A stretch of 64,000 bases of DNA from a virus: positions 56,748-120,747 of IMG/VR virus record IMGVR_UViG_3300030047_000014; one strand, written 5' to 3'. Each line of letters opens with the position of its first letter. Within the stretch, counting starts at the first letter, position 1. Both the position numbers and the translations under genes were made by a program. The notes beneath the pieces are model-generated. The model saw only the letters and a program-made list of their open reading frames with translations. It was not told where the DNA came from and searched no databases. Below, in pieces: positions 5,397 through 56,990 of the stretch.

Positions 5397-5862
5397 TTGG
5401 AGAAGTGCTAGTAAAGAAAACTACAAAGATTTCTGCCATAGATATAGTAGTATAAATATATCCTTTGACACATGGCAAAACATACTATACTCTTATAATG
5501 ATCAGTTTAAGGAGTATATTCTTGAAACAGGAGAAAAAGCAAAACTTCCATTAGGACTTGGAGAGTTTTCAATTAATAAGAAGAAGAGAAAAAGAATAAA
5601 GGTAGATGTCAGACACAACAGAGAATTTATTAATCTACCAATTGATTGGCAAAAAACTAAAGCAAAAGGAAAAATAATCTATAATTTTAATTTCCATACA
5701 GAAGGTTTCTCTTTTAACTGGATTTGGTTTAAATCAAGTGCAATGTTTAAGCAATCTGATTTATGGAGATTTAAAGCAAGTAGAGTTACTTCCAGATTAT
5801 TAACTCATTATCTTAAGTCTGATAATAAATATCAGCATCTATATAGAGAATGGCAACACTAA
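5380..5862 (+). CDS. crAss-like ring protein, gp41-like by order
   Basis: 160 residues from ATG 5380 (MRVKVDWRSAS), overlapping the previous gene by 17 bases. An earlier ATG at 5320 would overlap by 77 bases and adds a sequence unlike the rest, so the later start is preferred. The protein is basic in the middle (NKKKRKRIKVDVRHN) and has an aromatic-rich central stretch (FNFHTEGFSFNWIWFKS). Its position between the 254-residue protein and the adaptor fits the crAss001 ring gene gp41. Confidence 0.6.
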   Translation: MRVKVDWRSASKENYKDFCHRYSSINISFDTWQNILYSYNDQFKEYILETGEKAKLPLGLGEFSINKKKRKRIKVDVRHNREFINLPIDWQKTKAKGKIIYNFNFHTEGFSFNWIWFKSSAMFKQSDLWRFKASRVTSRLLTHYLKSDNKYQHLYREWQH

Positions 5863-17526: not shown

Positions 17527-18177
17527 ATGTTAGTATTAAGTCAAATATGTAAGATATGTAAGAAAGAATTACCTTTGAGTTCAGATTATTTTTGGGTAAG
17601 AAATGATTATAAGACAGGATTCTATAGCACATGTAAACAGTGTGTGTCTAATAAAGATAATATAAATGCACAAAAAACTCAGGACTTAAAAGATAATAAA
17701 TGGACTTGCACATCATGTAATAAAACATTAGATTTAAACTCTAAGAATTTTTATAAGAGAAATGATTCTTTTACAGGGTATCAATTTAGATGTAAGAGTT
17801 GTTTACGAAAAGATCCTAATAGATATGACAGATTAGTAAAGAAGGATGATTTACTTTATTTTCTAAAAGATTGTCTTAATGGGGCTAAGCATAGATCTTT
17901 ATATAAGAATATTGAGTTTGATCTAACTCTGGAATTCTTACAAGAGTTATGGAATAAACAAAATGGTCTGTGTGCTCTTACTAAAATTAATATGACACAT
18001 ACTATTTTAGAAGGAAAATTAAATACAAATTTGAGTATTGATAAAATAATACCTAAATTAGGATATATCAAAACTAATGTACAACTAGTTTGTATGTGTG
18101 TTAATAGAATGAAGAGTGATTTATCTATTGAGGAATTAAAATATTTTTGTAATTTAATACTACAAAACAATGACTAA
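17527..18177 (+). CDS. HNH-family homing endonuclease with two zinc ribbons
   Basis: 216 residues. Two treble-cysteine ribbons at the N-terminus (C8/C11/C36/C39 and C61/C64/C89/C92) precede an HNH-like core: NGLCALT near 146, SIDKIIPKLGYIKTNVQLV near 170 and VNRMKSDLS near 192. This is the free-standing phage HNH type. It sits between two cargo genes with 19 bases upstream and an 8-base overlap with the next start, as expected of a homing gene that inserted without breaking its neighbours. The first His of the classical HNH is not obvious. Confidence 0.75.
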   Translation: MLVLSQICKICKKELPLSSDYFWVRNDYKTGFYSTCKQCVSNKDNINAQKTQDLKDNKWTCTSCNKTLDLNSKNFYKRNDSFTGYQFRCKSCLRKDPNRYDRLVKKDDLLYFLKDCLNGAKHRSLYKNIEFDLTLEFLQELWNKQNGLCALTKINMTHTILEGKLNTNLSIDKIIPKLGYIKTNVQLVCMCVNRMKSDLSIEELKYFCNLILQNND

Positions 18178-23122: not shown

Positions 23123-26100
23123 ATGCCTATAAATGATTTAAGTCCTTTGACTGAAAACATACTACCAACAAGTAGACCTCAATCTGTAGGTAACTCAATT
23201 CCTAATCCATATATGGAAGGTAGTGGTAATGGTGATAGTGGAAGTAAACGTCCTGATTACTTACCTCCTCTTGCTTCAGGAAAGGATGAGATGCCTATTA
23301 CAGCAACCTCTGGACAGTTGCATGATGCAAGAAAGTTTTCTGTCTTTGATCCTACAAAGACAGAGAATGAGTTTGCTTATGGACAAGGATTTGTTTCTAA
23401 GATGGTTAGTGGTGTTGGTAAGGGATTATTACTTACAGGTACTACATTTCTACAGACTACTGCAGGATTAATAAATGGTTTATATCAATGGAATAAAACA
23501 GGGAAAGCATCTTCTTTCTATGATAATCCTCTTAATAAATGGGTAGATGATGTAAATGCAGAAGCTGAGAACAGATTACCTAATCTTTACACAAATATTG
23601 AGAAAGATGCTAATTGGTATTCTCCTAAATATTTATTAACAGGTAATTTCTTATGGGATGGTATTGTAAAGAATCTTGGATTCTCTGCAGGTGCTGCATT
23701 GTCAGGAATGGCATTTGCAGGAGCTTTAAGAGCTCTTCCTCTTACATCTAAGTTATTCTCTATTGGTAAAGGAGCTGAAGCTCTTGCAGCCACAGAAGAA
23801 GGAGTATCAGCATCTACAGCAGCAGGTAATGCTGCAGAAACTTATGGAAAGATCAAAGAGCAATCTGATAAATTCTTAGGATCATTTAAATTACTAAATC
23901 CTGGTGGTAGAGCTTTAATAGCAGGTTTATCTACTTCTGGAGAAGCTAGTTTTGAGTCATATCAGAATCTTAATCAATTCAGGAATGATGAAATAAAGAA
24001 ATATCAAGATACACATGATGGAGAGAAACCTACTGGAGAGGATCTTAAGAAGATTAATGATAATGCAGAACATGTTGGAAATGTGTCCTATCTGTCTAAT
24101 GTGGCTCTTCTTAGTGTTACTAATTATATACAGTTTCCTAAAATATTAGGATCTTCTTATAAAGCTGAGAAGGGAATGATTAATTCCTTAACCAAAGAAA
24201 CAGGAGATATAATTGGAACAGAAGGAAAATATCTTGTAAAGCCTGCAGGAAATAAGATTCTCTCAACTCTAAATAAGATTAGACCCTATACATTCTCTAC
24301 TTCAGAAGGATTTGAAGAGGGTGCACAGTATGTAATTCAGGAAGGTACTCAGAACTACTATGATAAAAAGTATAATAATACTCCAACTGATTTTCTAACC
24401 AGTCTTTTAGAAGGAGTTAAAAAGACTGTTGGTACTAATGAAGGTATGAAGAATATCTTAATTGGTGGATTATCAGGATCTATAATGATGGGTAGAGGAA
24501 GGTTCAGAGAAAATAGTGAGAAAGATAGAAATACTCAGGAAGCTGTTACAGCATTCAATAAAACTAAATTTTCTGATTTTACTCAGGAAACATTAGATGC
24601 TGTTAATAGAGGAACAACTCTTCAGGAAGAGAGAGAAGCTGCTCTAAAGAGTGGTGATATACTAAATAGTAAAGATAAAGAAGCTGATTATATAATCAAC
24701 TATCTTACACCACGTATTAAATATGGGAGGTTTGATTTAATTAAATCAGATATATCTGATTATAAACAACTTGCAAGCACTGATGAAGGTTTTGCTCAAT
24801 TACAATCTGAAGGTAAAGCCTTAACAACAGATACTAAGGAAGCTTATATTCAGAGATTATCTGCATTAGAAGCTACTGCTGAGAATGTAAAATCATTATA
24901 TCAATCTCTTAATCTTCGATATGGTGCACAAATAGATGAAAAAGGTAAACCTATCTACTCTCCTGCAGTTATGGACAAGATGGTTTATGCAGCATCTAAA
25001 GTAGCTGACTATGATAAACGAATTCCAGAATTAACTAATACATTAATACAAAGTAATATTGATGTTAATGCTGTAGTTAAAGATGTACTATTGGGTAAAT
25101 CAGACAGTTTTAATGAAGCTATGGATTCTATCAGCAAGATGGATATCTTAGATGAAGAAAAAACTTCTCTTAGTGAAGCTTTGGAAGATATAAGTGAACT
25201 TAGTCTTCGTAGAAATAAATTTCTAAAAGAATATACTGAGATAAAGAACAATCCTAAAAAATATCAGGAACAAAAAGCAGAAGATATCCAACCTCCTGTT
25301 GGTGAAGAGAATAGGATAATTGCTATTAAAACTAAGACAGGAGATAAGGAATTAACTATTGGTAAGGAGTACTTTATAGGTAAGGGATTTGACTATGATA
25401 AAGATGGTCTGGAGACTCCTGTTACTATTTCTAAACTTACTATTCTTAGTGAGAATGAGGATGGTACAATCAAAGTAAAAGGAAATAATGGTAAAGTAAT
25501 GGATATATCTAAGGATCAATTACTTGACTATAAAGTTACACCTGCTGAACAATTAAAAGCTAATAAGACTGCTAATTATTTCTTTAATCATAGGAATGAG
25601 TTGTTTGAGATTAATTTGGGTAAGAAATATGGTGGAAAGAAAACTGGTAGAATTGAATTCAAAGAAGGCAAACTCTTTATTGTATATAAAGGAGTTAATG
25701 GCAAACTTATTCACAAAGAGATAAATAATAGTTTCTTTGTTCCTCAAAAGGAATATAATGAACCAAGAATCAGAATTACAGGTAAAATTGAAACTGCAGA
25801 ACAGAAAGTAGCCAGGGAAGAATTCACTTCAGCAAAAGAATTAGAGGCACAGAAACAAACTGCTTCTCAGAATAGAGATACACGTATTGAAATTCTGACA
25901 CAGTTGTTTGATGATATCTCTACTAAGCAGGAAGATACCAATAAGTTACTGACTCAGAAGAAATCTGAATTAACAAATATTAAAGAGGAATTATCTAAAC
26001 TTGAGGAGAATATCCTTAATACTCAGAATGATGTAGATAAGAGATTTAAAAAAGTAACTTTCAGAGCTACTACCAGAAAAGCATTAGCTACTGCTTCTCG

Positions 26101-29100
26101 TTTGTCCAGAATGCAAGATCAGTTAGAAAAAGAGATAAAAGATCTTGAGACTCAGAGAGAAGAGTTAGATATTGATTTGTCTTATATTTCTGATATGGCT
26201 CAGAATATTGATGAGCTTCCTACAGATAGTAAGGAGTTTCTTAATGAGCTGAAATCTCATAAAGCATTATTGGAAGATATGCTTCTTAATACAGAAATTC
26301 AAATTGAGGAGACTAACAACATTATTAGCAAGGTAAAGGCAGCTTTAGATTCAGCTATGGATTTCTTATCAGATGTGATAGGTAAGTTTCAGCAGAAGTT
26401 TCCTAAAGTTCCGCTTGCTCTTGGTAGTGAATGGATTGAGTTTCTAAAAAATAATCCTAACTTTCTTAAGCGTAAACCTAACTATAAGGAAGAATTACAA
26501 CAGCTTGATGATTTAGTAGCTCAAGTTGAGGATATGGATATTATTCCTGGGGAGCGTACTATAAAAGAATTAAATGAGAAACTTGCAGAATTACAGGAAG
26601 CCTTATCTCCACTAGAAAGAGAATTAAAAGCAAGTAATGTTATATTGGATAGGTTTAGGGAAATTGCTAAAAAATCCAGGGAAGTAAAAGCTGAAGAGAA
26701 AGCTATGTCTGTAAAGGATGAGTTTTTAAAAAAGGCTCTTGGTACAGATAAGAGTGGTATCCAGAACAGAGAATTTGATAAGGATTATGAGCCTGAGGCT
26801 AAGAAGCCTACAGAGTTCATATGGAGAAGTACTATCACAACAGGAGATAAACCTCATGCCATTAGATCTAATAAATTTGGAGCTAATCTGAATTCATTTC
26901 CTAATAGAGATAAAATACGTGGGGTATATATAACTTTTAAAAATGAAGATCAGATACTACCAGGATTAATTGATCATTTAAGGACAGATGAAAATGGTAA
27001 TGTAGACAACTCTATAAATAGAGAGGATGTCATTGTATTAGTAATGACTGATGAGGATGGTAATCTGATTGATGAAAATGGTAAACTTGTACAGAATAAT
27101 GCTGACAAATTAAATACAGCTATATATCAAGTATTTCCAGAAGCTAAATTAGCTTGGAGTGAAAAGTATGGTAATGCATCAATGTTTAGGAAAGATACTC
27201 CTCAAGATGTAGTGGACTCTGTTAAGAAACAGTATGCTGATTGGAGAAAAGATATTTTAGAGAACACAACTGATTTAAGTAATAGTCATACTATTGATGC
27301 CTCTTTTGGATTTCCTGAGTATGAAACTGAACTGGATGAAAATCAAGTACCACAGAGGATTTATTCTACTAAGACATCTGTACAAGAAGCAGGTTTGGTT
27401 ACTGAAGATGAATTAGAAGCTTCTCCAGTAATTACTATTCCTACAACCAATAGTATTGTTGGTAAGGGCACTGTTTCCTTTACTAATGCTATTGGTAAAG
27501 TATTTCTTGAATTAAAGAATGGTCTGATACCACTACAGAATAGAAAACATACTAGTGAAGAGGCAGAGTTAATATATCAGTCTATCTATCACTTAGCTAA
27601 GAATATGCTTAAAGGTGAACTTAAGTCTGATGCTTCTGAGAACTTATTTAATTATCTTCGATCAGTAGTCTATTGGGGAATTCCTACAGATCAACAAGGT
27701 AATAGAAAAGAGACTAAAGGATATAATAGTATCTTCTGGGAGAAAGATCCTGTATCTGGAAAGTTCATGTTATCAATGTCAGGAAAAGGAATGAACTTTG
27801 TATTCACTCCTTCTGCACTGGAACAATATAAAGCAGATATAATTGCTATGTTAGAGGGGATGTATAATAACATTAACTCCTCTATGATTAAAGGTAATAA
27901 TGCTATTAATGAGAAATATCATGAACCATTATCTATAAATGCTGATGGTACTTTCAATACAAGAGAATGGAATAACTACCAGACTTATTTGTTATCAAGT
28001 ACAACTCCTGATGGTAAACCACGTAAAAACATTCCTCTTACTACATTAATGAAACCTCTTGCTAATAAGGAAGATGTAAATAGAAAAGGAATATATTTTT
28101 ATACTACTGATACAGCAGATGATATTGTTCTTCCTACTAAAAAACCTTTAGCAGCATCTAAAATGCTTCCAGGTAAATTACAGGAAGCTCTACAGAAAAC
28201 ACAAAAGTTTGTATTAGGTAGAAATAATTTAAATATATTTACTACAGATGCAGGAAAACAATTAAAGTTTATAGTTAGTGAGAAAGTTAATGCTAATAAC
28301 TTTATGCAGGAGATTAGTATTCTTCAAGGCGGTGATCTTGTAGAATTAATGGATATTATTAAAAAAGCAGGATTAGATCCTGCAAAGGTTCTTAAAAGAC
28401 GTATATTTAAAGCACTTGAGCCTCAATTAAATGATACAAATACTGAAGAGAAAGAAGATATCTTTAGAGTTCCTGATGATGAGGATGATACTAAAATACC
28501 TACACAGAAAGATAATAGAAAAACATCTAATGAAGATGATGAAGAGATGGAAGTCTTTCATGTTCCAGATGATATAGATGAGGATATTAAGAAGGCTTTA
28601 AATCGTGTGTCTAATGATTCTGATTTAGCAGCAACTCGTCTTGTTTTAAAACAGATGTTAGATGATTATAAAGAAGAGGACTGGACTAAAATAGAACAAT
28701 GGTTAAGAAATAATTTTCCTAACTTTCCTTTCTATAGGGTAAAGAATGTAATCCAGGTTACTAATGGAAGACAAGCTTGGGGTATGTTCAAACAGGCTGC
28801 TTTGTATGTATATCAACATGCAGAATCAGGTACATCATATCATGAGGTCTTTCATGCAGTATGGAGGATGTTCGTAGGTCCAGATGAACAATCTGCTATT
28901 GAAGATGAATTCACTTCCAGAAAAGGTAGTTTTATTGATAGAGCTACACAGAAGACAATAAAATACTCAGATGCTAATGCTAAAGAAATAGATGAGAAAT
29001 TAGCAGAAGAATTTAGAAATTATATTCAGGAAGGTAAAATCCCTGGTAAACCAGAGAAAGGAAGACCATTTATTCTTAAAATGTTTATAGACTTGGTAAA

Positions 29101-32100
29101 GTTTATTAAAACCTTCTTTGTTGGAAATGAAGGTATTAGTAATACAGAAAATCTATTTAAGCATATAAATGAGGGATACTATAAAAAAGTAATTCCTTAC
29201 ACAGCAAGTTTATCCTTGGCTAATAAAGGTATAATAAATATTAATAATGCAATTGCTACTACAGAAGACAATCTCAGTGTAGTATCTATCACAGATAAAC
29301 AACGTAGTGATATTATTCAGGAAATGACTTATCAAACTCTCAAGGAATTGATAGAGTCTGATAAGAGTTTATTTACTGTTCCTAATTTAAAGAAATCAGA
29401 ATTATATAGTAGACTGAAATCCAAGTTACTAGATACTCTTAGTAGAGATATAAAGAATTCTAAGAAACTAATTGCTAAAGGAGAATTTACAGAGAATCAA
29501 TTAGCTCCTTTAATGTATGAACGTCTTTCATTAATGCAAAATGTTGCTACACAATGGGATGCTATAGTTGCTAAGCATCAGGAGTATCTTAGGGGATATT
29601 CTATTGAGTTTGATGATAATGATAGTCTTCAGATAAATGATGAGGATAAGATCAAAAATAGTGATTTTGTAGATGCTACTAAAATAGATAGCTTTAAGAA
29701 AGCTAATAGTGCTATTAAACTACTCCTGGCAACTTTACCAAAGGTAGATGGAAATAATAGATTAATACCATCTTCTATTGGTGGAGCACAATTACTCCCT
29801 ATAAGTCAGACCTATATTAGTCTGATGAATAGGTTATATAACTCTAAGAGTATTGAAGATATGATGTCCAGACTTAAGGATATGGCTACTAATGATGTAA
29901 ATTACAGAACATTATACAAACGTCTTACTAAATCAGACTGGAAAACTAAAGGAATAGATATTAGTAAGATCAATACTACTTATGGTGCACAACTCCTTGG
30001 TTCTTTCTGGAAGACATTCAAGAAACAAAATCCAGATGTAAAGAATGTATTTATATTTGAGAATGGTGAGATAGTTATAGGAGATAGTAATTTATCGAGT
30101 GTAGCTAGTCAACTTAGAAATGAATATATTAATGACATTATCCTAACAGCAAAGAAGGATAATAGTTATTTTAAATATGATGAAAAGGAAAAAGTATTCA
30201 GAGGAGATGCTGTTGCTATCAAAAATGTAAAACTAGATACATTAACATCCTACTCAGAATTTCTTAATAAACTTGGTATTGTATTTACTGTACCTCAGAT
30301 CCAGAAATTAGGTTCTCATCTAAAAGATTTCAAGGAGACTGTTTCAGGTATACGAGCTAGTATTGCTGCAAATGAAAAAATTGCAACATTTTCTGGTAAG
30401 GTTTTAAATATTAATGGTCGTCTGCTTGAACTTGGTATTGCTAAAGCAGTTATTGATAATCCTGAATTTGATAGTACTTTCTTTAATGTTACTGGTGAAC
30501 GTACTCAATCATTTATTGGTGTTAATCCTGCTGATGCCTTATATAACTTTCTCTCTTCAATTGAGAAATTTGATGATGCTAATGTTCTTGACAGCGAATA
30601 TAGATATCTTAAAACAGATGCTTTCGCAAAAGGTTCCAATATTCTACAAAGAATGTTTACTTCTGAAGGTACACGTAAACATGGTTCTGAGGATCTTATG
30701 AAAGTAGGGTATGTTAGTGGTACTATTGATGAGAAGAAAGGTAAACAGAAAGCATCTGCCAGATTAAACTATAAAGAAAGACTTATTCAGGAGATCAATC
30801 TTAATCTAAAAGGATGGTATCTTAATTTAGTTCCTGCTGATGCAACTATGGAGTGGATGCTTAATACTGGGAATGCTATATCAGTAGCCTCTATATCTAA
30901 AGGACTTTCTGATGTAAATGCTATCTTTAAGAATTACTTCATCTCCGAGATGGATCTTGTTAAGGATAATAGGAAGATCAATAGCCATAGAGATGCTAAG
31001 GAAGCAAAAGAAATGAGGTTCTTTAAATCTATTCTTGGAGAAGAACTACATAATAAGATAGTTAAAGATAAAAGAGACTCTGAAGAAATATATGCTGATT
31101 ATGAATCTAAGATAAACTCTGCCCTGGAGAAATATATTAATAATGAAACTTCTAAGTTTCAGAAGAATTTAACTACTTGGGGAGTATTAACTGAGGATGA
31201 TCTTGGTCATACCTTGGAGAATATTAATCTTCCAGAGAATATGTCTATGGAAGAATTAGTTAGACAATTGAAAGCTCTTACAATTAATTTTATGATTTCT
31301 AATATTGAAATGCATAAACTACTGTATGCAGATCCTTATCAATACTATCAGGAATTAAAACGTATTAAGAACTTCAATTCACCTAGGCAGACTCTTATTA
31401 ATAACTCTCCTCAGATGAATGCAGTATTTAATTCTGTTTGGAATGAGAATTATAAAAAAGGAGATATTGGATATACTAACTTTCGTCAAGATTACTTTAG
31501 ATCAGCTACTCATAAAGATACCTTTGGGGTAATTGATTTACTTGGATATACAGATTTTGAAGAGACGGATGGTGCAGGTATTATTGGAATGAGAGCATAT
31601 CGCCAGTTTAGAATTAGAAGTGGAGATTGGAACGATAATGAAGAAAGTCAATATAGGTATGATATAGCCTGGGAGAAGAGAGATAAAGATTTTTCATTGT
31701 CTGCCAGTGAGGTAGCATTATTAGAAAAAGGAAATCCTGCTATTCAAAGTGCATATGTTAATATTAAACCTATTGTAGCAGGTAATAGACTGAATAGTAA
31801 GGGAAATGCAAATGATATCAATGATGTCTTATTGGATAAGTTTGCTCTATATCCTCTATCATATCGTATTATGAAAGAGATAAATCCTAATGCAAATGCT
31901 ATAAAGCTTTATGATAAAATGCAGAAGGAAGATATTGATTATATGGTATTTGAGAAAAGTAGAGTAGTAGGTGCAAGAGATCCTCATGATACATATAATG
32001 CTGATGGTTCTTTTAATACTAAGCCATATTCCGGGGAGAATGTGATCAATGTACCTTTTAGTATCATGAGTGTACAATCTGAAGTACCATCAAAAGAGAA

Positions 32101-35100
32101 AGCTCTTACTACACGTGGATCCCAGATTACAAAACTTGTAACTATGGACTTTATGGAAGCAGGTGTTCCACTTGATTTTGATAAAGAAAGTAGTTTCTTA
32201 AATAGATATAAGGCTTGGTATAAACTATCTGAAGATCAGAAATTAGCAACTTCTCCTTTATATAAAGATATAATGAATAATCAGGATCTCCTTGAGTTAA
32301 TGATGGAGCATGGTTATCAAACTCTTCTTAATAGGTTGGGTATCAAGGAAAGTAATGGTAAATTTAGTATTGAAGATTTATCCGATGCTGTTTCTACTCT
32401 TAGGGAGGAAGTATTAAAAAGAGAAGTAAATGACAACATTAGTGATGCTCTTACAGGTTTCTTGGAGGGTCAGTCTATTCTTGAGGCTACTCCTGCGTAT
32501 CAGCAGATAAGGAATATTCTTTATTCAATTGCTGATAAAGAGATTATATCCCCTAAAATTAGTGGAGGTATGAAAGTACAAATTCCTTCTACAATGATGG
32601 AATCTGTTAGAGCAGAAGAAACTACTATTAATGGTAAGAGAGGATTTACCTCTGACTTCCTAAACTTCTATAAAGATGAAGATGGAAAGAGAGTATGTGA
32701 AATAATGATAGGTAGATGGTTTAAGAGTAGTATGTCTGATGCTGAGTTACTTGACTATTTGAATAACTCAGAAGAAGGTAAATCTATTCTATCTGGTTTA
32801 GGATTTCGTATTCCTACCCAGAAACAGAACTCAATCGATAATTTTGTTATTAAACAATTCCTTCCTAAAGAGTTTGGTGATTCTGTTGTTATACCTGCAG
32901 CACTTGTACAGAAAGCAGGATCTGACTTTGACATTGATAAATTATCAGTCTACTTAAAAAACATCTTCAAAGATGTCAATGGAGACATTAGATTAGTTTC
33001 ATACAAAGGATCTGAGAAAGCTACTAAGGATTATTATAGTGAAGTATTCTCGGATAAAATTGAGAAACAAATAGAAAACCTTGAGAAACAGGATGATAAG
33101 AATGACATGATAATGGATGTCATGAGTAAGCTAGAAACTCTTCCAGATATCACTATATCTTCAGCTAAAGCTGTATTGGGTAAAGAGGAATATCATTTCT
33201 ATGCTAATAACTTAGATCTACTTTATGATATACTTGAAAGAGCTGATGAACAGGAGATTTCTGGTACTGAGTATATTCAGGGCAGATTAAATGAGTCTGG
33301 TGAGAAGAAAGCAGAATTATTTACAAAACTATTACTTGAGGATTTAAGAAAAGGGTACATAGATAGGATGTATAAAAAATCCTTAGAGAATGCTTATATT
33401 CAATCCTCTCAGAATCTCGTATCTCATAAGCTTAATTTTGACAAGCTTATTAAACCTAACTCTGCAGACCAAATGAAGAAATTATCAGCAGAGATTGCAA
33501 AGAAGACTCTAGGTTCTACTTTTGATTATAATGATGTAGGTAATATGCTAGATAGGGGATTTATGTCCAGACTTAGACATGCTTTTGTATCTGGTAAGTA
33601 TGCTATTGGTATAGCCGCTGTAAATCAGACTAATCATTCCCTGAATCAAAGACAACCTATCTACATTGATAAAAATAGATTCAATAAGCTTAGTGAGGAA
33701 GATAAGTACTGGTTAGTAGATGGTGAAGTAAGATTTGATAAATTTAATAGAATTGAAGTTAATGGTAAGATAGTACCTACATTATCTATGATTAAGAATG
33801 TAGATGGTCAGTATATATCTGATATCATCTCTCAGTTTATTGATGGATATGTGGATATTGCTAAAGGTCCTTGGATTATGGAATTAGGAGCTACACCTAA
33901 TGTTGCTTCAACCTTTATGTTCCTGGCTAAATTAGGAGTTCCTATTGATACTGTATCTTATTTTATGAATCAACCTATTATTCGTGATTATCTATCTAAG
34001 ATTAGTAATGCAGGGTACTCATGGTTATTCATTGATAATTTCGTTGAGGAGTTAAAACAAGATGCTAAATGGTCTGTTGATGATCGTAAGGAAGCTGATT
34101 TAGAAACAGTTGGATTTAAAGGGATGGGTTTAAATCAAATTCCTAGTAAATCTACATTAAAAAATAATATTGGGAAAGAGGATTTTAATGCACAGGAGAG
34201 ATTAGAACAACGCTTTATTCTTCAGGAATTTCTAAAGTATGCTAAGATGGCTGAGCATATGTTCTTGGTTACACAGGGATCTAATTTTGATACTGCTAAC
34301 TTCAACGATCCATATCTTGTATTTAAGAAATTTAAACAGTTAGAGAAGGCTCAGAATACAATCATTAGTGATGTGAATACTCTTTTGAATAACTCTTTCG
34401 TAGGACAGCTTAGTGAGACTATTAAGAAAACAAGAAATGCTTTGGCTACTATTCTTAAATCAGATCAGGATAATGTTAGAAGAGTTATTCAGAAAGTATT
34501 GGAGCCTTATGTCAATATGAACAATAATGACTTTGTTAAACTTGCTCAGAAGGCTGTTAATGATTTATTTGACTGGGCTGTTCAAACAGGAGATGAGAAG
34601 TTAAATGCTGATATTCGTAATGTATTGATTACTAATGGTGGTGTGGGTGCAGAAGTTATGGAGTTTGTAAATAGTATTAAAGTTAATTCTTCTCATCCTC
34701 TGCATGATAATCATGTCATTAATATTATACAGGCAATACCATCACCAAGGGCAGAACAAGGAGGAGTTAATAATCTGAAAGTAAAAGGTACAGACAATAA
34801 GGTTTATGACCAGAATAATATTATATATGGGTTTAGAGAGATAAGAGAGTATTTAAAAGACAAAAATAGTAAGTTATATGATAGGATTAAATTACTTGCT
34901 GTATTACAGAGTGGTTTGTCTAATTCAGCTATTTCCTTTACCTCACTTCTACCATATGAAGATTTTGCAGAATTATATAATAAAACTTTGTCTAGTTTAG
35001 AGAAACTTCCTAATTTAGAGGAGTTTTTCAAGCTTGGTGTGTTTGAGAGAAATAATTGGAATAATGATGATATAATCCCATATACTAAAGCCAGAATAAT

Positions 35101-35809
35101 TAAAACAGCAAGTAGATCCTATTATAATCCTGCGATGGAATTTCTGGATAAAAATGTAAAAGAAGCTGTAAGGAATAAAAAAATTCCTCCAGTAATGACT
35201 TTATCTACTCGTAATAGGGAAGCTAATTCTGATCATATAGTATTTACATGGGAGAAACAAGAAGACTTACTAACTGAAGCTGAAAAGTCAGAAGCTAATA
35301 AGAATAGAACTTCTTTCTATAAAGCTGTACAACAGAAGAAATTAAATATGAGGAAGATAGGAGATTACTCTTTTATACAGAAGGGCTTATTCAAGAAAAT
35401 ATATGATAACTTTGGAACTGCTCTTCAGACTACAGATAAAAAAGGTACTCCTTATTTTGTATACAAGGCTATTAATGCCTGGGGAGATAGTTATAGAGCT
35501 AATGAATTCTATACAACTGATCATCATTCTGTAATTGAGAATGGTTTTATTAAGGTGGAAGATGTTGATAATAATAGGATTATAGATTTATTTAATAAAG
35601 AAGAAAAAACAACTGCAGTATCTTCTTTAAAAAGAAATGAGTTATTAGAAGATTATTCTCAGAAAACAGGAGAGATTCTTGGAGTAGTACCTATAAAAAC
35701 TCTTAAAGATGGTAAAACATATACGTTTGCTCAAATAAATAGTAAGATGCTTGAGGAGATGAAATATACTCCTAATCAAATAGGTGAAATTTTAAAATCA
35801 ATCTGTTAA
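23123..35809 (+). CDS. Giant virion protein: zinc metalloprotease fused to crAss-type RNA polymerase
   Basis: 4228 residues. In order: a polar N-terminus; a hydrophobic helix near 190; an SH3-like barrel near 730-875; coiled coil at about 915-1195; an acidic linker at about 1780-1825 with two xVPDD motifs; a zincin motif H1907-E-V-F-H1911 in GTSYHEVFHAVW; and a long C-terminal region with D3268-F-D-I-D3272 (AGSDFDIDKLSVY), the metal-binding DxDxD of YonO/crAss single-chain RNA polymerases such as phi14:2 gp66. Those enzymes are packaged and transcribe early genes after injection. The protease may cut the precursor or act on host or capsid proteins. It is preceded by cargo and followed by a GIY-YIG gene. 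Confidence 0.85.
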   Translation: MPINDLSPLTENILPTSRPQSVGNSIPNPYMEGSGNGDSGSKRPDYLPPLASGKDEMPITATSGQLHDARKFSVFDPTKTENEFAYGQGFVSKMVSGVGKGLLLTGTTFLQTTAGLINGLYQWNKTGKASSFYDNPLNKWVDDVNAEAENRLPNLYTNIEKDANWYSPKYLLTGNFLWDGIVKNLGFSAGAALSGMAFAGALRALPLTSKLFSIGKGAEALAATEEGVSASTAAGNAAETYGKIKEQSDKFLGSFKLLNPGGRALIAGLSTSGEASFESYQNLNQFRNDEIKKYQDTHDGEKPTGEDLKKINDNAEHVGNVSYLSNVALLSVTNYIQFPKILGSSYKAEKGMINSLTKETGDIIGTEGKYLVKPAGNKILSTLNKIRPYTFSTSEGFEEGAQYVIQEGTQNYYDKKYNNTPTDFLTSLLEGVKKTVGTNEGMKNILIGGLSGSIMMGRGRFRENSEKDRNTQEAVTAFNKTKFSDFTQETLDAVNRGTTLQEEREAALKSGDILNSKDKEADYIINYLTPRIKYGRFDLIKSDISDYKQLASTDEGFAQLQSEGKALTTDTKEAYIQRLSALEATAENVKSLYQSLNLRYGAQIDEKGKPIYSPAVMDKMVYAASKVADYDKRIPELTNTLIQSNIDVNAVVKDVLLGKSDSFNEAMDSISKMDILDEEKTSLSEALEDISELSLRRNKFLKEYTEIKNNPKKYQEQKAEDIQPPVGEENRIIAIKTKTGDKELTIGKEYFIGKGFDYDKDGLETPVTISKLTILSENEDGTIKVKGNNGKVMDISKDQLLDYKVTPAEQLKANKTANYFFNHRNELFEINLGKKYGGKKTGRIEFKEGKLFIVYKGVNGKLIHKEINNSFFVPQKEYNEPRIRITGKIETAEQKVAREEFTSAKELEAQKQTASQNRDTRIEILTQLFDDISTKQEDTNKLLTQKKSELTNIKEELSKLEENILNTQNDVDKRFKKVTFRATTRKALATASRLSRMQDQLEKEIKDLETQREELDIDLSYISDMAQNIDELPTDSKEFLNELKSHKALLEDMLLNTEIQIEETNNIISKVKAALDSAMDFLSDVIGKFQQKFPKVPLALGSEWIEFLKNNPNFLKRKPNYKEELQQLDDLVAQVEDMDIIPGERTIKELNEKLAELQEALSPLERELKASNVILDRFREIAKKSREVKAEEKAMSVKDEFLKKALGTDKSGIQNREFDKDYEPEAKKPTEFIWRSTITTGDKPHAIRSNKFGANLNSFPNRDKIRGVYITFKNEDQILPGLIDHLRTDENGNVDNSINREDVIVLVMTDEDGNLIDENGKLVQNNADKLNTAIYQVFPEAKLAWSEKYGNASMFRKDTPQDVVDSVKKQYADWRKDILENTTDLSNSHTIDASFGFPEYETELDENQVPQRIYSTKTSVQEAGLVTEDELEASPVITIPTTNSIVGKGTVSFTNAIGKVFLELKNGLIPLQNRKHTSEEAELIYQSIYHLAKNMLKGELKSDASENLFNYLRSVVYWGIPTDQQGNRKETKGYNSIFWEKDPVSGKFMLSMSGKGMNFVFTPSALEQYKADIIAMLEGMYNNINSSMIKGNNAINEKYHEPLSINADGTFNTREWNNYQTYLLSSTTPDGKPRKNIPLTTLMKPLANKEDVNRKGIYFYTTDTADDIVLPTKKPLAASKMLPGKLQEALQKTQKFVLGRNNLNIFTTDAGKQLKFIVSEKVNANNFMQEISILQGGDLVELMDIIKKAGLDPAKVLKRRIFKALEPQLNDTNTEEKEDIFRVPDDEDDTKIPTQKDNRKTSNEDDEEMEVFHVPDDIDEDIKKALNRVSNDSDLAATRLVLKQMLDDYKEEDWTKIEQWLRNNFPNFPFYRVKNVIQVTNGRQAWGMFKQAALYVYQHAESGTSYHEVFHAVWRMFVGPDEQSAIEDEFTSRKGSFIDRATQKTIKYSDANAKEIDEKLAEEFRNYIQEGKIPGKPEKGRPFILKMFIDLVKFIKTFFVGNEGISNTENLFKHINEGYYKKVIPYTASLSLANKGIININNAIATTEDNLSVVSITDKQRSDIIQEMTYQTLKELIESDKSLFTVPNLKKSELYSRLKSKLLDTLSRDIKNSKKLIAKGEFTENQLAPLMYERLSLMQNVATQWDAIVAKHQEYLRGYSIEFDDNDSLQINDEDKIKNSDFVDATKIDSFKKANSAIKLLLATLPKVDGNNRLIPSSIGGAQLLPISQTYISLMNRLYNSKSIEDMMSRLKDMATNDVNYRTLYKRLTKSDWKTKGIDISKINTTYGAQLLGSFWKTFKKQNPDVKNVFIFENGEIVIGDSNLSSVASQLRNEYINDIILTAKKDNSYFKYDEKEKVFRGDAVAIKNVKLDTLTSYSEFLNKLGIVFTVPQIQKLGSHLKDFKETVSGIRASIAANEKIATFSGKVLNINGRLLELGIAKAVIDNPEFDSTFFNVTGERTQSFIGVNPADALYNFLSSIEKFDDANVLDSEYRYLKTDAFAKGSNILQRMFTSEGTRKHGSEDLMKVGYVSGTIDEKKGKQKASARLNYKERLIQEINLNLKGWYLNLVPADATMEWMLNTGNAISVASISKGLSDVNAIFKNYFISEMDLVKDNRKINSHRDAKEAKEMRFFKSILGEELHNKIVKDKRDSEEIYADYESKINSALEKYINNETSKFQKNLTTWGVLTEDDLGHTLENINLPENMSMEELVRQLKALTINFMISNIEMHKLLYADPYQYYQELKRIKNFNSPRQTLINNSPQMNAVFNSVWNENYKKGDIGYTNFRQDYFRSATHKDTFGVIDLLGYTDFEETDGAGIIGMRAYRQFRIRSGDWNDNEESQYRYDIAWEKRDKDFSLSASEVALLEKGNPAIQSAYVNIKPIVAGNRLNSKGNANDINDVLLDKFALYPLSYRIMKEINPNANAIKLYDKMQKEDIDYMVFEKSRVVGARDPHDTYNADGSFNTKPYSGENVINVPFSIMSVQSEVPSKEKALTTRGSQITKLVTMDFMEAGVPLDFDKESSFLNRYKAWYKLSEDQKLATSPLYKDIMNNQDLLELMMEHGYQTLLNRLGIKESNGKFSIEDLSDAVSTLREEVLKREVNDNISDALTGFLEGQSILEATPAYQQIRNILYSIADKEIISPKISGGMKVQIPSTMMESVRAEETTINGKRGFTSDFLNFYKDEDGKRVCEIMIGRWFKSSMSDAELLDYLNNSEEGKSILSGLGFRIPTQKQNSIDNFVIKQFLPKEFGDSVVIPAALVQKAGSDFDIDKLSVYLKNIFKDVNGDIRLVSYKGSEKATKDYYSEVFSDKIEKQIENLEKQDDKNDMIMDVMSKLETLPDITISSAKAVLGKEEYHFYANNLDLLYDILERADEQEISGTEYIQGRLNESGEKKAELFTKLLLEDLRKGYIDRMYKKSLENAYIQSSQNLVSHKLNFDKLIKPNSADQMKKLSAEIAKKTLGSTFDYNDVGNMLDRGFMSRLRHAFVSGKYAIGIAAVNQTNHSLNQRQPIYIDKNRFNKLSEEDKYWLVDGEVRFDKFNRIEVNGKIVPTLSMIKNVDGQYISDIISQFIDGYVDIAKGPWIMELGATPNVASTFMFLAKLGVPIDTVSYFMNQPIIRDYLSKISNAGYSWLFIDNFVEELKQDAKWSVDDRKEADLETVGFKGMGLNQIPSKSTLKNNIGKEDFNAQERLEQRFILQEFLKYAKMAEHMFLVTQGSNFDTANFNDPYLVFKKFKQLEKAQNTIISDVNTLLNNSFVGQLSETIKKTRNALATILKSDQDNVRRVIQKVLEPYVNMNNNDFVKLAQKAVNDLFDWAVQTGDEKLNADIRNVLITNGGVGAEVMEFVNSIKVNSSHPLHDNHVINIIQAIPSPRAEQGGVNNLKVKGTDNKVYDQNNIIYGFREIREYLKDKNSKLYDRIKLLAVLQSGLSNSAISFTSLLPYEDFAELYNKTLSSLEKLPNLEEFFKLGVFERNNWNNDDIIPYTKARIIKTASRSYYNPAMEFLDKNVKEAVRNKKIPPVMTLSTRNREANSDHIVFTWEKQEDLLTEAEKSEANKNRTSFYKAVQQKKLNMRKIGDYSFIQKGLFKKIYDNFGTALQTTDKKGTPYFVYKAINAWGDSYRANEFYTTDHHSVIENGFIKVEDVDNNRIIDLFNKEEKTTAVSSLKRNELLEDYSQKTGEILGVVPIKTLKDGKTYTFAQINSKMLEEMKYTPNQIGEILKSIC

Positions 35810-36532: not shown

Positions 36533-39500
36533 ATGGCTACTTGTCCTAACATCAATCATCCTGACTGGCAGAAACTTGTAGATATACATGGGACTAATCT
36601 TTCTTATTATCTTTGGGATAAACATGAAGGAGAAGTTCCAGAACAGGAATTCAGACCTTCTAAGTCTTCTCCAGAAACTCTTAACAAAGTAAAAGAAGTT
36701 GCTAAGAAAATGGGTGTGGATATTCAGAAGTTAACTGATTATGCTAAAAAAACAGGAGTGAGTCTTACATCTAATGATGTAAATGGTGTAGCTAATCTTG
36801 CTCTTGGAGTAATTGCTATTGCTGAGGGTAGAGAAGATATTGCTCTTACAGAGGAGGTTGTTCATATTGCTACTGCAATACTAGAACAAACCAATCCTAC
36901 TATGGTAACAGAAATGATATCCAAGATAGATAGGTTTGCTATATATAAACAAACTCTAAATGCTTATAAGGATGATAAAGACTATCAATTAGAAAATGGT
37001 AAGCCTAATATTCGACTTATAAAAAAAGAAGCTGTTGATAAACTTATTGCTGAACTTATTGTGAATCAATCAGAAGGATCAACTGAGTTTCCTGAGTTAA
37101 TGCAGGAGGTTAACAGATCTGTTATTAGAACATGGTGGAATGCTATCTTAGATACTATACGTGGTATTTATAAAAAAGCTAACATAGATATATTTGGACA
37201 AGTTGCTAATAAAATTCTATCTAATAATGTAGAAGGTAATATAGAAGATCTAAATTCTGATAATGTATTATATCAATTATCTAAACCTCAATTAGATATA
37301 CAAGCAAAACTTCAAAATACTAAGAATACTATAAGAAAAGTAGAATCTACTGAATCTGTAGATCCTATGTTCATGGATACAGAGGAAGCTAATAACTGGT
37401 ATGAAATACAGCAACCAGATGGAACATGGGAAAGAATTAAGAAACGTGTAACAGATAGAGTTAAGGCTTGGTATAAACAAAGATTTCCTGGGAAGACATT
37501 TACTCCTGAAGAAAAAGCATTTAATGAGTTTAAAAGACAATTAGGTGTACAAGGTCATGCTTACTTTGAAGAGATACATAGTAGATACTTTAATGATGAT
37601 GGTACTAGAAAAGTTACTATACAACCACGCTCTGTAAAGTTATCTCCTTCTGATGAAGACATCTATGATAAATTGGAAGCCTATTACTCAGATTTAATTA
37701 ATAAGTATTCTAAAGATGGTAAGACTCCTTTAGTATTCTCTGAAGTAAAGGTATATGATCCTAAGGAAAAGGAAGCAGGAACCATAGATTTACTTATTAT
37801 AGAGGAATCAGGTAAAGCTCATATTATAGACTGGAAATTTATGAGTATTGGTAATGATGCTAAAGATATTGCCTGGTACAAACAGGGTGCTTATAATATT
37901 CAGTTAGGAAGATACAAGGATATTCTTATACAACGTTATGGTATAAAGGAGATTGGTATGAATAGAGCTATTCCTATCCTTATGGATTTGAAGAAGGAAA
38001 ATCCTAAAGACTTGAAATCTCATAAAATGGTATTGAAAGGAATAGCTATTGGTACTGTTGATACATCTAAGATTGAGGATATAAGATTGATGCCAGTATC
38101 AGAGCAAATAGAAACTACAGGTGAAAAAGCTCTTGATAAGCTTCTTGTAAAACTTAATTCTGTTTACAAACAGATTAATAAGAAGACAGCCACTAGTGAT
38201 GAGGAAAGAGAATTTAAATCTGAACGTCTGAATATAATTAAGAGAACCATTCGTTTAGCTCAAGGTAGTCAGAATATTGCTCCCTTGGTAGAAGTTATTC
38301 ATAGTATGAGACAAGAAGGTCAAATGATTATGGATGATTATAACACTATATATAAGAATGCATCTGATATTGGTTCTTTCTCTGAAAGACAATTATCAGA
38401 TTTTGCTGAAGAGATTAGGGAGTATCTTGCAGTAGCAGAGGTATTTGGAGAAGTTCCAGATACAATAGGGAAGTTAGTTTATGATCCTAAGATGGAGAAT
38501 GATGCTACTACTGAAGAAGAAGTAGAAGAGCTTGCAGGGCGTAAGTTGGTTCTTAATAATATTAAGGATGAAGCAGAAATGATCAGAGCTTCCAGAAGAG
38601 AATTAGATGAAGCTTCAAAGGAATTTGCTGATAAGTTTATAGGAGAACGTAATTTAGTGACAGGTCTTCTTAATTCAGAAGCTGTTATAAAAGGGCTTGC
38701 TGCTACATTCAGAGGTATATCAGAATTACCTTCTGCTTCTTTGAAAGTACTATTTAAGATAGTAGAAAATGCAAAATCAATTGCTTCACAAACTGCTCTA
38801 AAAGAAGTTGATGAACTTCTTGAGATAAGAAAAAGATTATCAGATAGAGGAGGAGATTTAAGAAAGATAGTCCAACAGATCTATCAAAAAGATGATAAAG
38901 ATAAGATAACCAATAAGTTAATCTATAAATATAGCAAGGATTTCTTTACTACTATTGATGAGAATGCTAAATCAGATACTCCTAGTATGCAGATATTAAG
39001 GGATAGCATTGATGTTGAGGCTTATAAAGCAGAAGCTATTAAGCATATGGAGGAGAGAATTGCTTACGTAGAGAAAAAACATAGCGAAGATGATGAAACC
39101 TTAGATAGACTTATTGCTGAGGAAAGACATAAATGGGATATAGATAATAAGGCTTTTAATGGTTGGAATAACTATATTCTTAAAAGACACCCAAAAGAAG
39201 CATGGTTATCTAAAGAGTACAAAGAATTATCAAAAGATAAGGATCTTCTAGAGTTATATAATTTTATTTCTGGAGTAAATAAGAAAGCTACAGAAGCGGG
39301 TTATTTACAAAACAAAGGAGCATCTACCTTTCTTCCATTTGTAAGAAAGAGTATGGCAGAGAGTATTGCCTGGGATTTTAGTCTTACTACCATTAAGAAT
39401 TGGGGAGATAGTTTTAAAGGTAGAGCTGATGATGTAGGTTATGGTTCTATAAATGAACTCACTGGAGAAATGGAACATTCTATTCCTAAATATTATACAT

Positions 39501-41404
39501 CTGATTTTTCTACAAAAGAAGATGGAACTCATGATTATAGTGATGTAAGTGAGGACCTCTTTAAGAATATGATTCTATACATTAACCACGTAGAGAAATA
39601 TAAACATCTATCTGATGTTGAAGGTCAGTTACAATTGGTTAAAACTATTGAAACTTTTAAAGGTCATTTAAATACAAGTAGAAATGGTGATGTAATATTT
39701 GAAGATAACAATCCAAAAGAGTTCATTGGTAATGAAGAGAATGCAAAATTATTTGATGATTTCTTAAGAGCCTTATTATATGAGCAGAAATATCCTTTAT
39801 CAAGTAGTGATATTCCTTTAGGTGTTGGAAAGGTTATGAACTTTATGAAACAAGCTGTTAACAATGTAGCTGGTTCAGAAGTTTTTACAATTAATGATAA
39901 TCCTTCAGCATTATCTCTTGTTAAGACAATGGATAGTGCAAATAGATGGTTTCAGGTTAAAACACTAGGATTTGAATTTATATCAGGAGCTGTAAATATA
40001 TTTGGAGGAAACATTCAGGTAGCTACACAAGCAGGTAATTATTTTAAAACTAGAGAATTCTTGGCAAATGAGTCTAAACTAATTGGTAATAGCTTTAGAA
40101 ATGATGATGAGAGAAAGATGTTCATGCAACTCGTAGATAAATTCATGCCTTTAAAAGATGATCCTACCTATGAAAAAATAAATAAAGCAGGAATGTCTGT
40201 ACTTACTCAGCATAATTTCGTAGACTGGCTAATGGTTGCTATGAGAAAACCTGAAGAACATCTTGAGAAATCTGTATTTCTAACTCTTCTTGATAATACT
40301 ATGGTTGAGGATGGAAGACTTATAAGTATTAGAGAATATGTCAAAAGTAAACACCCTGAGAGATTCACATCCGCTACTGTATATAAAGGAACTTCTATTG
40401 AGATGAATAATGAAATAGAGGAACTAAAGAAAACAAGGTCTATTAGTGCTATTAAGAAGATGGAAGAGGGTAAATTAGTAATACCTGGATTTGATCTGGA
40501 CAATACAAAAGAGACTCAACGACTTACTAATCTTACCAGAATGATATCAAGAAATGCAACAGGTGCATTGTCTAATTCTGATCTTAATAGAATGGGAATG
40601 AATATCTGGACTAAGAGTATGATGGTATTCAAAAATTGGATACCTAAACTTGTTGATACTCGTTTCTCTGAGTTTAGAAAAATTAGTGATGATTTCTCTG
40701 TAGTTATTGGAGAAAATGGTTTAACAACAGGTGAAAAATATGATATAGGAAGAATTCGACTATGGGGATATGTAATAGGTACATCTATAAGAGATAAAAC
40801 TTCTAATCTATATAATATTATTAGTCTGAATGACAAGGGGTTACTAGCATTAGATAAAATGTATGAGGATTTTGGTGAGAAGTATAAATTAAGAACTGGA
40901 CAAGAATTAAATATGTCTAAAGAAGATTTTATAGATCTCATCAGAACTAATTTACAGAATCAGGTAAAGGAATTAGCAATGCTTCTTTCTTTATTTGGTG
41001 CAATGATGGCTTTAGGCTTAATGGTTCCTGATGATGATGATGATAAGGCTATTAAGAATTTCTATCGTTATTCTCAAAGAGTAGTAGATAAATTCATTAC
41101 TGAGCTCTCATTCTTCTATAATCCTGCAGAGTTCCAAAGAATACTAAGTGGTAGTGTATTTCCTGCTATTGGTATCTTTACAGATGTTGAGAAATTCATA
41201 TCTAATTTTATGATGGAAACAACAGGAATGGATATTACTAACTCTGCACTGACACCTGAAGAAGTAATGAAGAAAGCACAACCAGTTAAGTACCTTGCTA
41301 AGATGTTTCCTATAACTAAATCAGTTATTACATATATGTCTTTGTTTGATTCTGATTTTGCTAAGGAATATAATATTACAGTACAGAAACAGATTAATAG
41401 ATAA
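36533..41404 (+). CDS. Giant cargo protein with PD-(D/E)XK nuclease domain
   Basis: 1623 residues. The start MATCPNINHPDWQKLVD is typical of large phage virion proteins linked to RNAP in Bacteroidetes phages. An EEVVH segment near 103 resembles a degenerate zincin helix. A PD-(D/E)XK nuclease fold reads at about 395-470: SEVKVYD, GTID (D419), IIDWK (D433, K435), and the helical Q457-x3-Y461. Long helical regions follow. Near 1490 there is a hydrophobic helix (LAMLLSLFGAMMALGLMV) followed by five Asp. It is probably packaged and injected. The nuclease could act on host DNA or on entering DNA; that is unresolved. Confidence 0.7.
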   Translation: MATCPNINHPDWQKLVDIHGTNLSYYLWDKHEGEVPEQEFRPSKSSPETLNKVKEVAKKMGVDIQKLTDYAKKTGVSLTSNDVNGVANLALGVIAIAEGREDIALTEEVVHIATAILEQTNPTMVTEMISKIDRFAIYKQTLNAYKDDKDYQLENGKPNIRLIKKEAVDKLIAELIVNQSEGSTEFPELMQEVNRSVIRTWWNAILDTIRGIYKKANIDIFGQVANKILSNNVEGNIEDLNSDNVLYQLSKPQLDIQAKLQNTKNTIRKVESTESVDPMFMDTEEANNWYEIQQPDGTWERIKKRVTDRVKAWYKQRFPGKTFTPEEKAFNEFKRQLGVQGHAYFEEIHSRYFNDDGTRKVTIQPRSVKLSPSDEDIYDKLEAYYSDLINKYSKDGKTPLVFSEVKVYDPKEKEAGTIDLLIIEESGKAHIIDWKFMSIGNDAKDIAWYKQGAYNIQLGRYKDILIQRYGIKEIGMNRAIPILMDLKKENPKDLKSHKMVLKGIAIGTVDTSKIEDIRLMPVSEQIETTGEKALDKLLVKLNSVYKQINKKTATSDEEREFKSERLNIIKRTIRLAQGSQNIAPLVEVIHSMRQEGQMIMDDYNTIYKNASDIGSFSERQLSDFAEEIREYLAVAEVFGEVPDTIGKLVYDPKMENDATTEEEVEELAGRKLVLNNIKDEAEMIRASRRELDEASKEFADKFIGERNLVTGLLNSEAVIKGLAATFRGISELPSASLKVLFKIVENAKSIASQTALKEVDELLEIRKRLSDRGGDLRKIVQQIYQKDDKDKITNKLIYKYSKDFFTTIDENAKSDTPSMQILRDSIDVEAYKAEAIKHMEERIAYVEKKHSEDDETLDRLIAEERHKWDIDNKAFNGWNNYILKRHPKEAWLSKEYKELSKDKDLLELYNFISGVNKKATEAGYLQNKGASTFLPFVRKSMAESIAWDFSLTTIKNWGDSFKGRADDVGYGSINELTGEMEHSIPKYYTSDFSTKEDGTHDYSDVSEDLFKNMILYINHVEKYKHLSDVEGQLQLVKTIETFKGHLNTSRNGDVIFEDNNPKEFIGNEENAKLFDDFLRALLYEQKYPLSSSDIPLGVGKVMNFMKQAVNNVAGSEVFTINDNPSALSLVKTMDSANRWFQVKTLGFEFISGAVNIFGGNIQVATQAGNYFKTREFLANESKLIGNSFRNDDERKMFMQLVDKFMPLKDDPTYEKINKAGMSVLTQHNFVDWLMVAMRKPEEHLEKSVFLTLLDNTMVEDGRLISIREYVKSKHPERFTSATVYKGTSIEMNNEIEELKKTRSISAIKKMEEGKLVIPGFDLDNTKETQRLTNLTRMISRNATGALSNSDLNRMGMNIWTKSMMVFKNWIPKLVDTRFSEFRKISDDFSVVIGENGLTTGEKYDIGRIRLWGYVIGTSIRDKTSNLYNIISLNDKGLLALDKMYEDFGEKYKLRTGQELNMSKEDFIDLIRTNLQNQVKELAMLLSLFGAMMALGLMVPDDDDDKAIKNFYRYSQRVVDKFITELSFFYNPAEFQRILSGSVFPAIGIFTDVEKFISNFMMETTGMDITNSALTPEEVMKKAQPVKYLAKMFPITKSVITYMSLFDSDFAKEYNITVQKQINR

Positions 41405-56703: not shown

Positions 56704-56990
56704 TGCAGATCAATAAAAGATTCTTTCCAGAAGTAATGTTAGACAATGAGATGCTTTATTTTGCATATCTGGAAGGAGTCTTAAGCTCTGTTGATGAACT
56801 ATCAAGTCTTGAGATTGTAAAATCTATAAATGCTTATCATTTTAGATTAGCTCCTAGTACTCCTAAATATGGTAAGATACTATTTCAGGAGATATTAAAA
56901 ATGCATAACTTCTTCAGTATAAAATTAGATCTCTCTAAATCTATCAAGACTTCAGGAACAATTACATTTAGTATTGAATTAAACAATTAA
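56703..56990 (+). CDS. Small hypothetical protein coupled to Dps-like gene
   Basis: 95 residues. The first half is helical and the second half beta-rich (SIKTSGTITFSIELNN). The start overlaps the upstream stop by one base, suggesting that the two products work together. No family was recognised. Confidence 0.5.
   Translation: MQINKRFFPEVMLDNEMLYFAYLEGVLSSVDELSSLEIVKSINAYHFRLAPSTPKYGKILFQEILKMHNFFSIKLDLSKSIKTSGTITFSIELNN

Follow-up and report, generated by a model that had tools for sequence, protein, structure and literature searches.

The window, a 64,000-nucleotide stretch running from base 56748 to the final base, 120747, of a virus record (IMGVR_UViG_3300030047_000014), contains one open reading frame encoding a protein of 4228 amino acids (Table 1). 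An earlier note on this DNA had placed a HEVFH and a DFDID motif in this single frame, and both the coordinates and the motifs are as claimed there. Given its composition, a protein of such make-up is expected to contain 0.026 HExxH and 0.06 DFDxD occurrences by chance. Judging from its gene content, the source phage is of Crassvirales type, since the virus record that holds the fused gene also holds tblastn matches to the phi14:2 portal (E 4e-40) and TerL (E 2e-15), along with a gene for the IHF-like hallmark protein. Megablast against phages returned no match, and genome searches with the crAss001 major capsid protein and tblastn gave no match for a major capsid protein. A search of the genome for PF03237 was empty; TerL and portal were later recovered with the phi14:2 proteins. 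Elsewhere in the window, an Endonuclease VII/HNH-type gene lies amid structural genes (17527-18177; PHROG E 1e-25), a 1623-aa protein occupies the position of phi14:2 gp65 (36533-41404) with a weak PHROG exonuclease match at its residues 378-473 (E 2.9e-4), and a 994-aa ORF on the opposite strand adjoins the tail-fibre genes (48706-51690, minus strand; no PHROG match).

Table 1. Features of the fused cargo gene and its genomic setting, in window coordinates
Feature	Position	Strand	Basis or remark
IHF-like gene, Crassvirales hallmark	5422..5808	+	tblastn of phi14:2 gp73, E 1.5e-7
4228-aa fused cargo protein (gp47/gp67-like part, zincin-like domain, gp66/gp50-type RNA polymerase)	23123..35809	+	ATG start, without internal stop
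Residues 68-718, homologous to crAss001 gp47 residues 85-825	23324..25276	+	hhalign E 8.4e-35
Acidic, indel-rich, poorly conserved linker (residues ~1740-1850) upstream of the zincin-like domain, candidate hinge	28340..28672	+	
First FxVPDD copy (FRVPDD, from residue 1781)	28463..28480	+	
Second FxVPDD copy (FHVPDD, from residue 1812)	28556..28573	+	
Zincin-like domain (residues ~1855-2034), homologous to the crAss001 gp47 C-terminal domain	28685..29224	+	hhalign, AlphaFold2
HEVFH (residues 1907-1911), in model helix 60-73	28841..28855	+	HExxE in most relatives
D1957-E1958, switch position and, next to it, the invariant Glu (putative third zinc ligand)	28991..28996	+	Glu/Asp in HExxH, Lys/Arg in HExxE forms
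E1962, second Glu on the ligand helix, almost invariant	29006..29008	+	conservation in relatives
Residues ~2080-2100, site corresponding to the gene boundary in relatives with separate genes (end of crAss001 gp47; Dulem virus 41)	29360..29422	+	conservation dip after, 2101-2150
RNA polymerase part, residues 2547-3995	30761..35107	+	hhalign, tblastn
DFDID (residues 3268-3272), polymerase catalytic motif	32924..32938	+	aligned to phi14:2 gp66 DFDID

By homology, the 4228-aa protein joins two virion cargo proteins which occur as separate proteins in other phages, because profile comparison maps its halves to gp47 and gp66. In addition to the crAss001 gp47 match, window residues 68-466 match phi14:2 gp67 50-410 (hhalign, E 7.9e-10). 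On the polymerase side, residues 2547-3623 match phi14:2 gp66 632-1657 (hhalign, E 5e-26; tblastn E 3e-19), and residues 2659-3995 match the separate RNA polymerase (RNAP) gene of Dulem virus 41 (hhalign, E 1.1e-20). The DFDID motif is kept in all relatives gathered by the RNAP part, and the homology to gp66 around the DxDxD motif identifies a Crassvirales virion RNA polymerase of the gp66/gp50 type, that is, a relative of the two-barrel crassvirus enzyme rather than an N4-type (T7-like) polymerase. Searches with the whole protein against PHROGs, Pfam and PDB sequences gave no matches. Homology thus assigns residues 1 to ~2090 to a gp47-like protein with a terminal zincin-like domain, and ~2100 onward to a gp66/gp50-type polymerase. 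The earlier note was right that the length far exceeds that of phi14:2 gp66-type polymerases (2180 aa for gp66). The unusual length of this polymerase protein is due to the fusion, and we rejected the idea that it marks a new polymerase type. Calling the product a virion protein, as the note did, is for the window phage a deduction from homologues: the phi14:2 gp66 and gp67 records carry MS/MS-based annotation, and crAss001 gp47, gp49 and gp50 were found in virions by mass spectrometry (PMC10172136).

The HEVFH motif falls in a domain whose surroundings (window residues 1844-2078) match crAss001 gp47 2087-2317 (hhalign, E 3.2e-12). An AlphaFold2 model of residues 1845-2034, based on 73 homologues, reached a mean pLDDT of 81.6, with about 85-96 in the core and the highest values around HEVFH and the Glu helix. 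Its predicted order of elements is helix, strands, HExxH helix, helix, hairpin and Glu helix, in agreement with the core of polyvalent-protein metallopeptidases (N-terminal helix, three-stranded sheet, HExxH helix, Glu helix), the topology that we used for comparison (PMC5512222). Similarly, the window has the HExxH plus a Glu on a following conserved helix (H1907, E1908, H1911, E1958). Foldseek searches of BFVD recovered crassvirus giant proteins with E-values down to 2.4e-9, as well as a protein named “Large polyvalent protein associated domain-containing” (E 1.2e-3).

Could HEVFH be a chance motif in a region that is not a zincin? The domain matched no Pfam family, and Foldseek against PDB yielded no significant match (best E 0.28), with some zincin-type proteins low in the lists; with a first, low-confidence model, Foldseek likewise gave no significant matches. 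A PDB profile search with the domain produced a sole, weak match to a designed helical protein, which we discarded as implausible. Nevertheless, we regard a chance motif as very improbable, given the low number expected from composition, the zincin-like order of the predicted elements, and the conservation of H1907, E1908, E1958 and their neighbours across distant crassviruses. A zincin fold is likely according to the model. Since solved zincins gave no significant sequence or fold match, the putative peptidase assignment is based on the motif, the predicted topology and the relatives; on the point raised by the earlier note, whether HEVFH sits in a zincin fold, the core topology fits and we lean in favour. 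The domain of the window phage, which has HExxH, is probably a metallopeptidase, as predicted, able to process cargo, its own chain possibly included.

Comparison with relatives revealed both fused and split arrangements. Every complete ORF of the window’s clade is fused, as is cr118_1, whereas the genes are split in crAss001, phi14:2, Dulem virus 41 and cr112_1. Among the matches listed, at least 56 of 81 more distant motif-carrying loci also have the fusion, a lower bound that misses divergent polymerase motifs and polymerases past the locus end and that includes some near-identical loci. In crAss001, cr112_1 and Dulem virus 41, the first-part gene stops shortly past the HExxH domain, so that the zincin-like domain forms the C-terminus of the gp47-like protein, and the polymerase is a separate gene. 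The crAss001 gp47 shares with the window protein the homologous N-terminal region and a C-terminal HEAFH domain, and gp50 shares the polymerase motif, there DFDVD, but the two are unfused genes on opposite strands. In phi14:2, gp66 has the homologous polymerase part with DFDID and its gene adjoins the gp67-like cargo gene, yet it is a separate protein, while the window polymerase continues in frame from the gp67/gp47-like protein; its gp67 has no HExxH. The 4946-aa protein of cr118_1 (Suoliviridae) joins HEAFH and DFDID in one chain and in the same order as in the window, although its sequence is distant and it is annotated as exonuclease V or DNA helicase.

Other arrangements were seen at individual loci of the wider set. 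At L191, L195 and L201 the polymerase motif is on the opposite strand, as in crAss001, and at L198 it is apparently in the overlapping next frame. At L190 the zincin ORF is split, and no polymerase motif was found within reach. The annotated giant CDSs of cr4_1 and cr130_1 (L036 and L041) are not fully open under table 11, which suggests a reassigned stop codon.

The earlier note proposed that the protease may liberate the polymerase. Its premise holds to the extent that a gp66-type RNAP and a zincin-like domain share one chain, that the domain is located at the junction of the cargo modules, and that a cut there, at ~2080-2100, would recreate the two proteins that crAss001 and Dulem virus 41 encode separately. 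Release as the reason for the domain’s presence is unsupported, and several observations argue against it. The domain stays on the gp47-like protein where the polymerase gene is already separate (crAss001, cr112_1 and Dulem virus 41), the second His is missing (HExxE) in most fused close relatives, which keep the fusion, phi14:2 combines a gp67 devoid of HExxH with a separate gp66, and the N4 virion RNAP is packaged unprocessed (PMC5512222). Self-cleavage of the chain, in the virion or post-ejection, that frees the RNA polymerase by cuts at 1740-1850 or ~2080-2150 faces the same objections, and we consider it unlikely. In its favour, beyond the location of the domain, are the variable acidic linker upstream of it, the autoprocessing proposed for polyvalent-protein metallopeptidase domains (PMC5512222), and the self-cleavage of CLCA-family HEXXE zincins (PMC6851300). 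Linker residues 1751-1850 have a conservation of 0.27-0.30, an acid fraction of 0.26-0.30 and insertions, and pLDDT is below 50 in the modelled portion. A repeated cleavage motif speaks against self-cleavage by its absence from the other cargo proteins: a search for a shared motif in the other larger or cargo proteins of the window found FxVPDD only twice, both times in the linker of the 4228-aa protein.

We examined the loss of the second His in relatives gathered by the RNAP part alone, a set that is unbiased for the zincin-like domain. In these 29 clade sequences, position 1911 is E in 19 and H in 10, and H1907, E1908, E1958 and E1962 are invariant (29/29). In the wider sampling, position 1911 was always H or E among the matches listed. 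The residue at 1957, immediately before the invariant E1958, follows this switch: among the matches listed, it is Lys or Arg in 73 of 73 distinct HExxE domains versus 3 of 62 HExxH domains, the latter having Glu/Asp in 56, Lys in 3, Asn in 2 and Leu in 1. The pattern-based scans favour GTxYHExF sequences, so that H/E frequencies among the matches listed are not population estimates; both the link to 1957 and the constancy of the other residues were examined in the RNAP-found set as well. K1915 was considered as a second switch residue and dropped as a firm claim, as it holds in 12 of 24 of a pattern-found HExxE sample. To our knowledge, the covarying H/E switch has not been described previously.

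The switch appears to have occurred repeatedly. Mapping the H/E states called for 8 changes on the tree of the RNAP part, of which supported branches force 6; for 9 on the tree of the N-terminal part (8 forced); and for 7 on the domain’s own tree with the trait columns removed (2 forced). In six supported independent pairs, the charge at position 1957 changed the same way in five, the opposite way in none, and showed no difference in one (p 0.06). FastTree flagged several long-branch meetings, and recombination of the domain could be the source of some apparent switches. Decay of the HExxE domains is unlikely, judged from sequence conservation, because, at equal polymerase identity, the domains of HExxE pairs resemble each other as closely as those of HExxH pairs, or more closely. 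With no relaxation at matched RNAP identity, we rejected the view of HExxE forms as decaying domains; they also keep every other active-site residue.

What the HExxE domains do instead may be answered in two ways, namely an altered enzyme or a scaffold held by the Glu-Lys/Arg pair, so that the conserved role would be either proteolysis via an altered site or a structural or assembly role. A metal-free scaffold, with the Glu 1911 and Lys/Arg 1957 charge pair in the place of zinc and with a live enzyme kept in HExxH lineages, is possible, though we would not expect it. The near-perfect charge swap and the undiminished conservation point towards it; on the other hand, H1907 and the would-be catalytic E1908 are invariant in 19/19 RNAP-found HExxE sequences, which a scaffold does not obviously need, and the 1911-1957 contact is a proposal from sequence. 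An altered enzyme has a precedent in CLCA proteins, which are active HEXXE zincins with self-cleavage (PMC6851300) and share with the window’s relatives the Glu that replaces the second His of HExxH; they differ in being eukaryotic secreted or membrane proteins, and their likeness to the window domain is at the level of the motif. Should the HExxE site support catalysis, as it does in CLCA proteins, the case against a protease that generally releases the polymerase would be weaker.

Taken together, we find it fairly probable that a Crassvirales-type virion RNA polymerase has been fused behind a gp47/gp67-like cargo protein, that the zincin-like domain has long belonged to the gp47-like protein, was not added to free the polymerase and does not serve mainly for its release, and that HExxH chemistry is not generally needed in the fused protein, the HExxE form being a working variant or a metal-free scaffold. 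The function of the domain would extend beyond polymerase release because it persists in phages whose polymerase has its own gene, and HExxH chemistry would be dispensable because HExxE is recurrent, no less conserved, and accompanied by the remaining active-site residues. Since HExxE relatives retain the fusion, we take the polymerase to work without HExxH proteolysis, at least in HExxE phages. Under this fusion model, the chain would be packaged with the genome and ejected, probably partly unfolded, and would then refold in the host and transcribe early genes, in line with a published model of cargo ejection with DNA and refolding (PMC10172136). In HExxH phages, including that of the window, the domain may in addition cut its own chain, the linker and the junction at 2080-2150 being the candidate sites. 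The domain might also act in trans, as a peptidase on ejection or cargo proteins, on the cell envelope, or on host proteins after injection. Its retention on gp47 in split-gene phages would agree with this, as would the effector role also proposed for polyvalent-protein metallopeptidases (PMC5512222), but no target candidate was found and the HExxE variant puts activity in question, and we hold action in trans to be improbable. A bolder and rather unlikely reading is that a virion zincin has gone back and forth several times between a metal site (HExxH, with Glu/Asp preceding the ligand Glu) and an alternative one where a Glu-Lys/Arg pair takes over from the metal, with its constraint kept, such that delivery of the fused polymerase would alternate between processed and unprocessed (or differently processed) forms among close relatives.

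The polymerase of N4 belongs to the T7-like single-subunit class, and the RNAP-metallopeptidase layout that it shares with the window protein is therefore convergent. N4-like phages also combine an injected RNAP with a metallopeptidase domain within a single giant virion protein, and this joining, with the idea of autoprocessing, has been published for them and for polyvalent proteins (PMC5512222). For crassviruses, the phi14:2 gp66 virion RNA polymerase has been solved (PDB 6VR4), and fusions of virion RNAPs to large proteins are mentioned (PMC10770324). A protease or zincin is not mentioned in the crassvirus papers that we searched. Metallopeptidase domains are frequent in giant injected phage proteins, where they may cut their own chain. 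This family offers a natural experiment on whether processing depends on the metal site, as close relatives with the same fusion differ in one metal ligand and, in step with it, in a residue of the ligand helix. These results also hint at the function of proteins currently annotated as RNA polymerase subunit, DNA helicase or exonuclease V.

Two further HExxH motifs were observed in the split-gene phages. The gp47-like protein of Dulem virus 41 (L039:2098-9522) has, besides its C-terminal HEAFH, a second one, VHELNH, near the N-terminus (open-frame residue ~143), and phi14:2 gp65 (L034:15411-19676) has a zincin-like HEIMH of its own at ORF residue ~247, followed by NVHEFISEVI.
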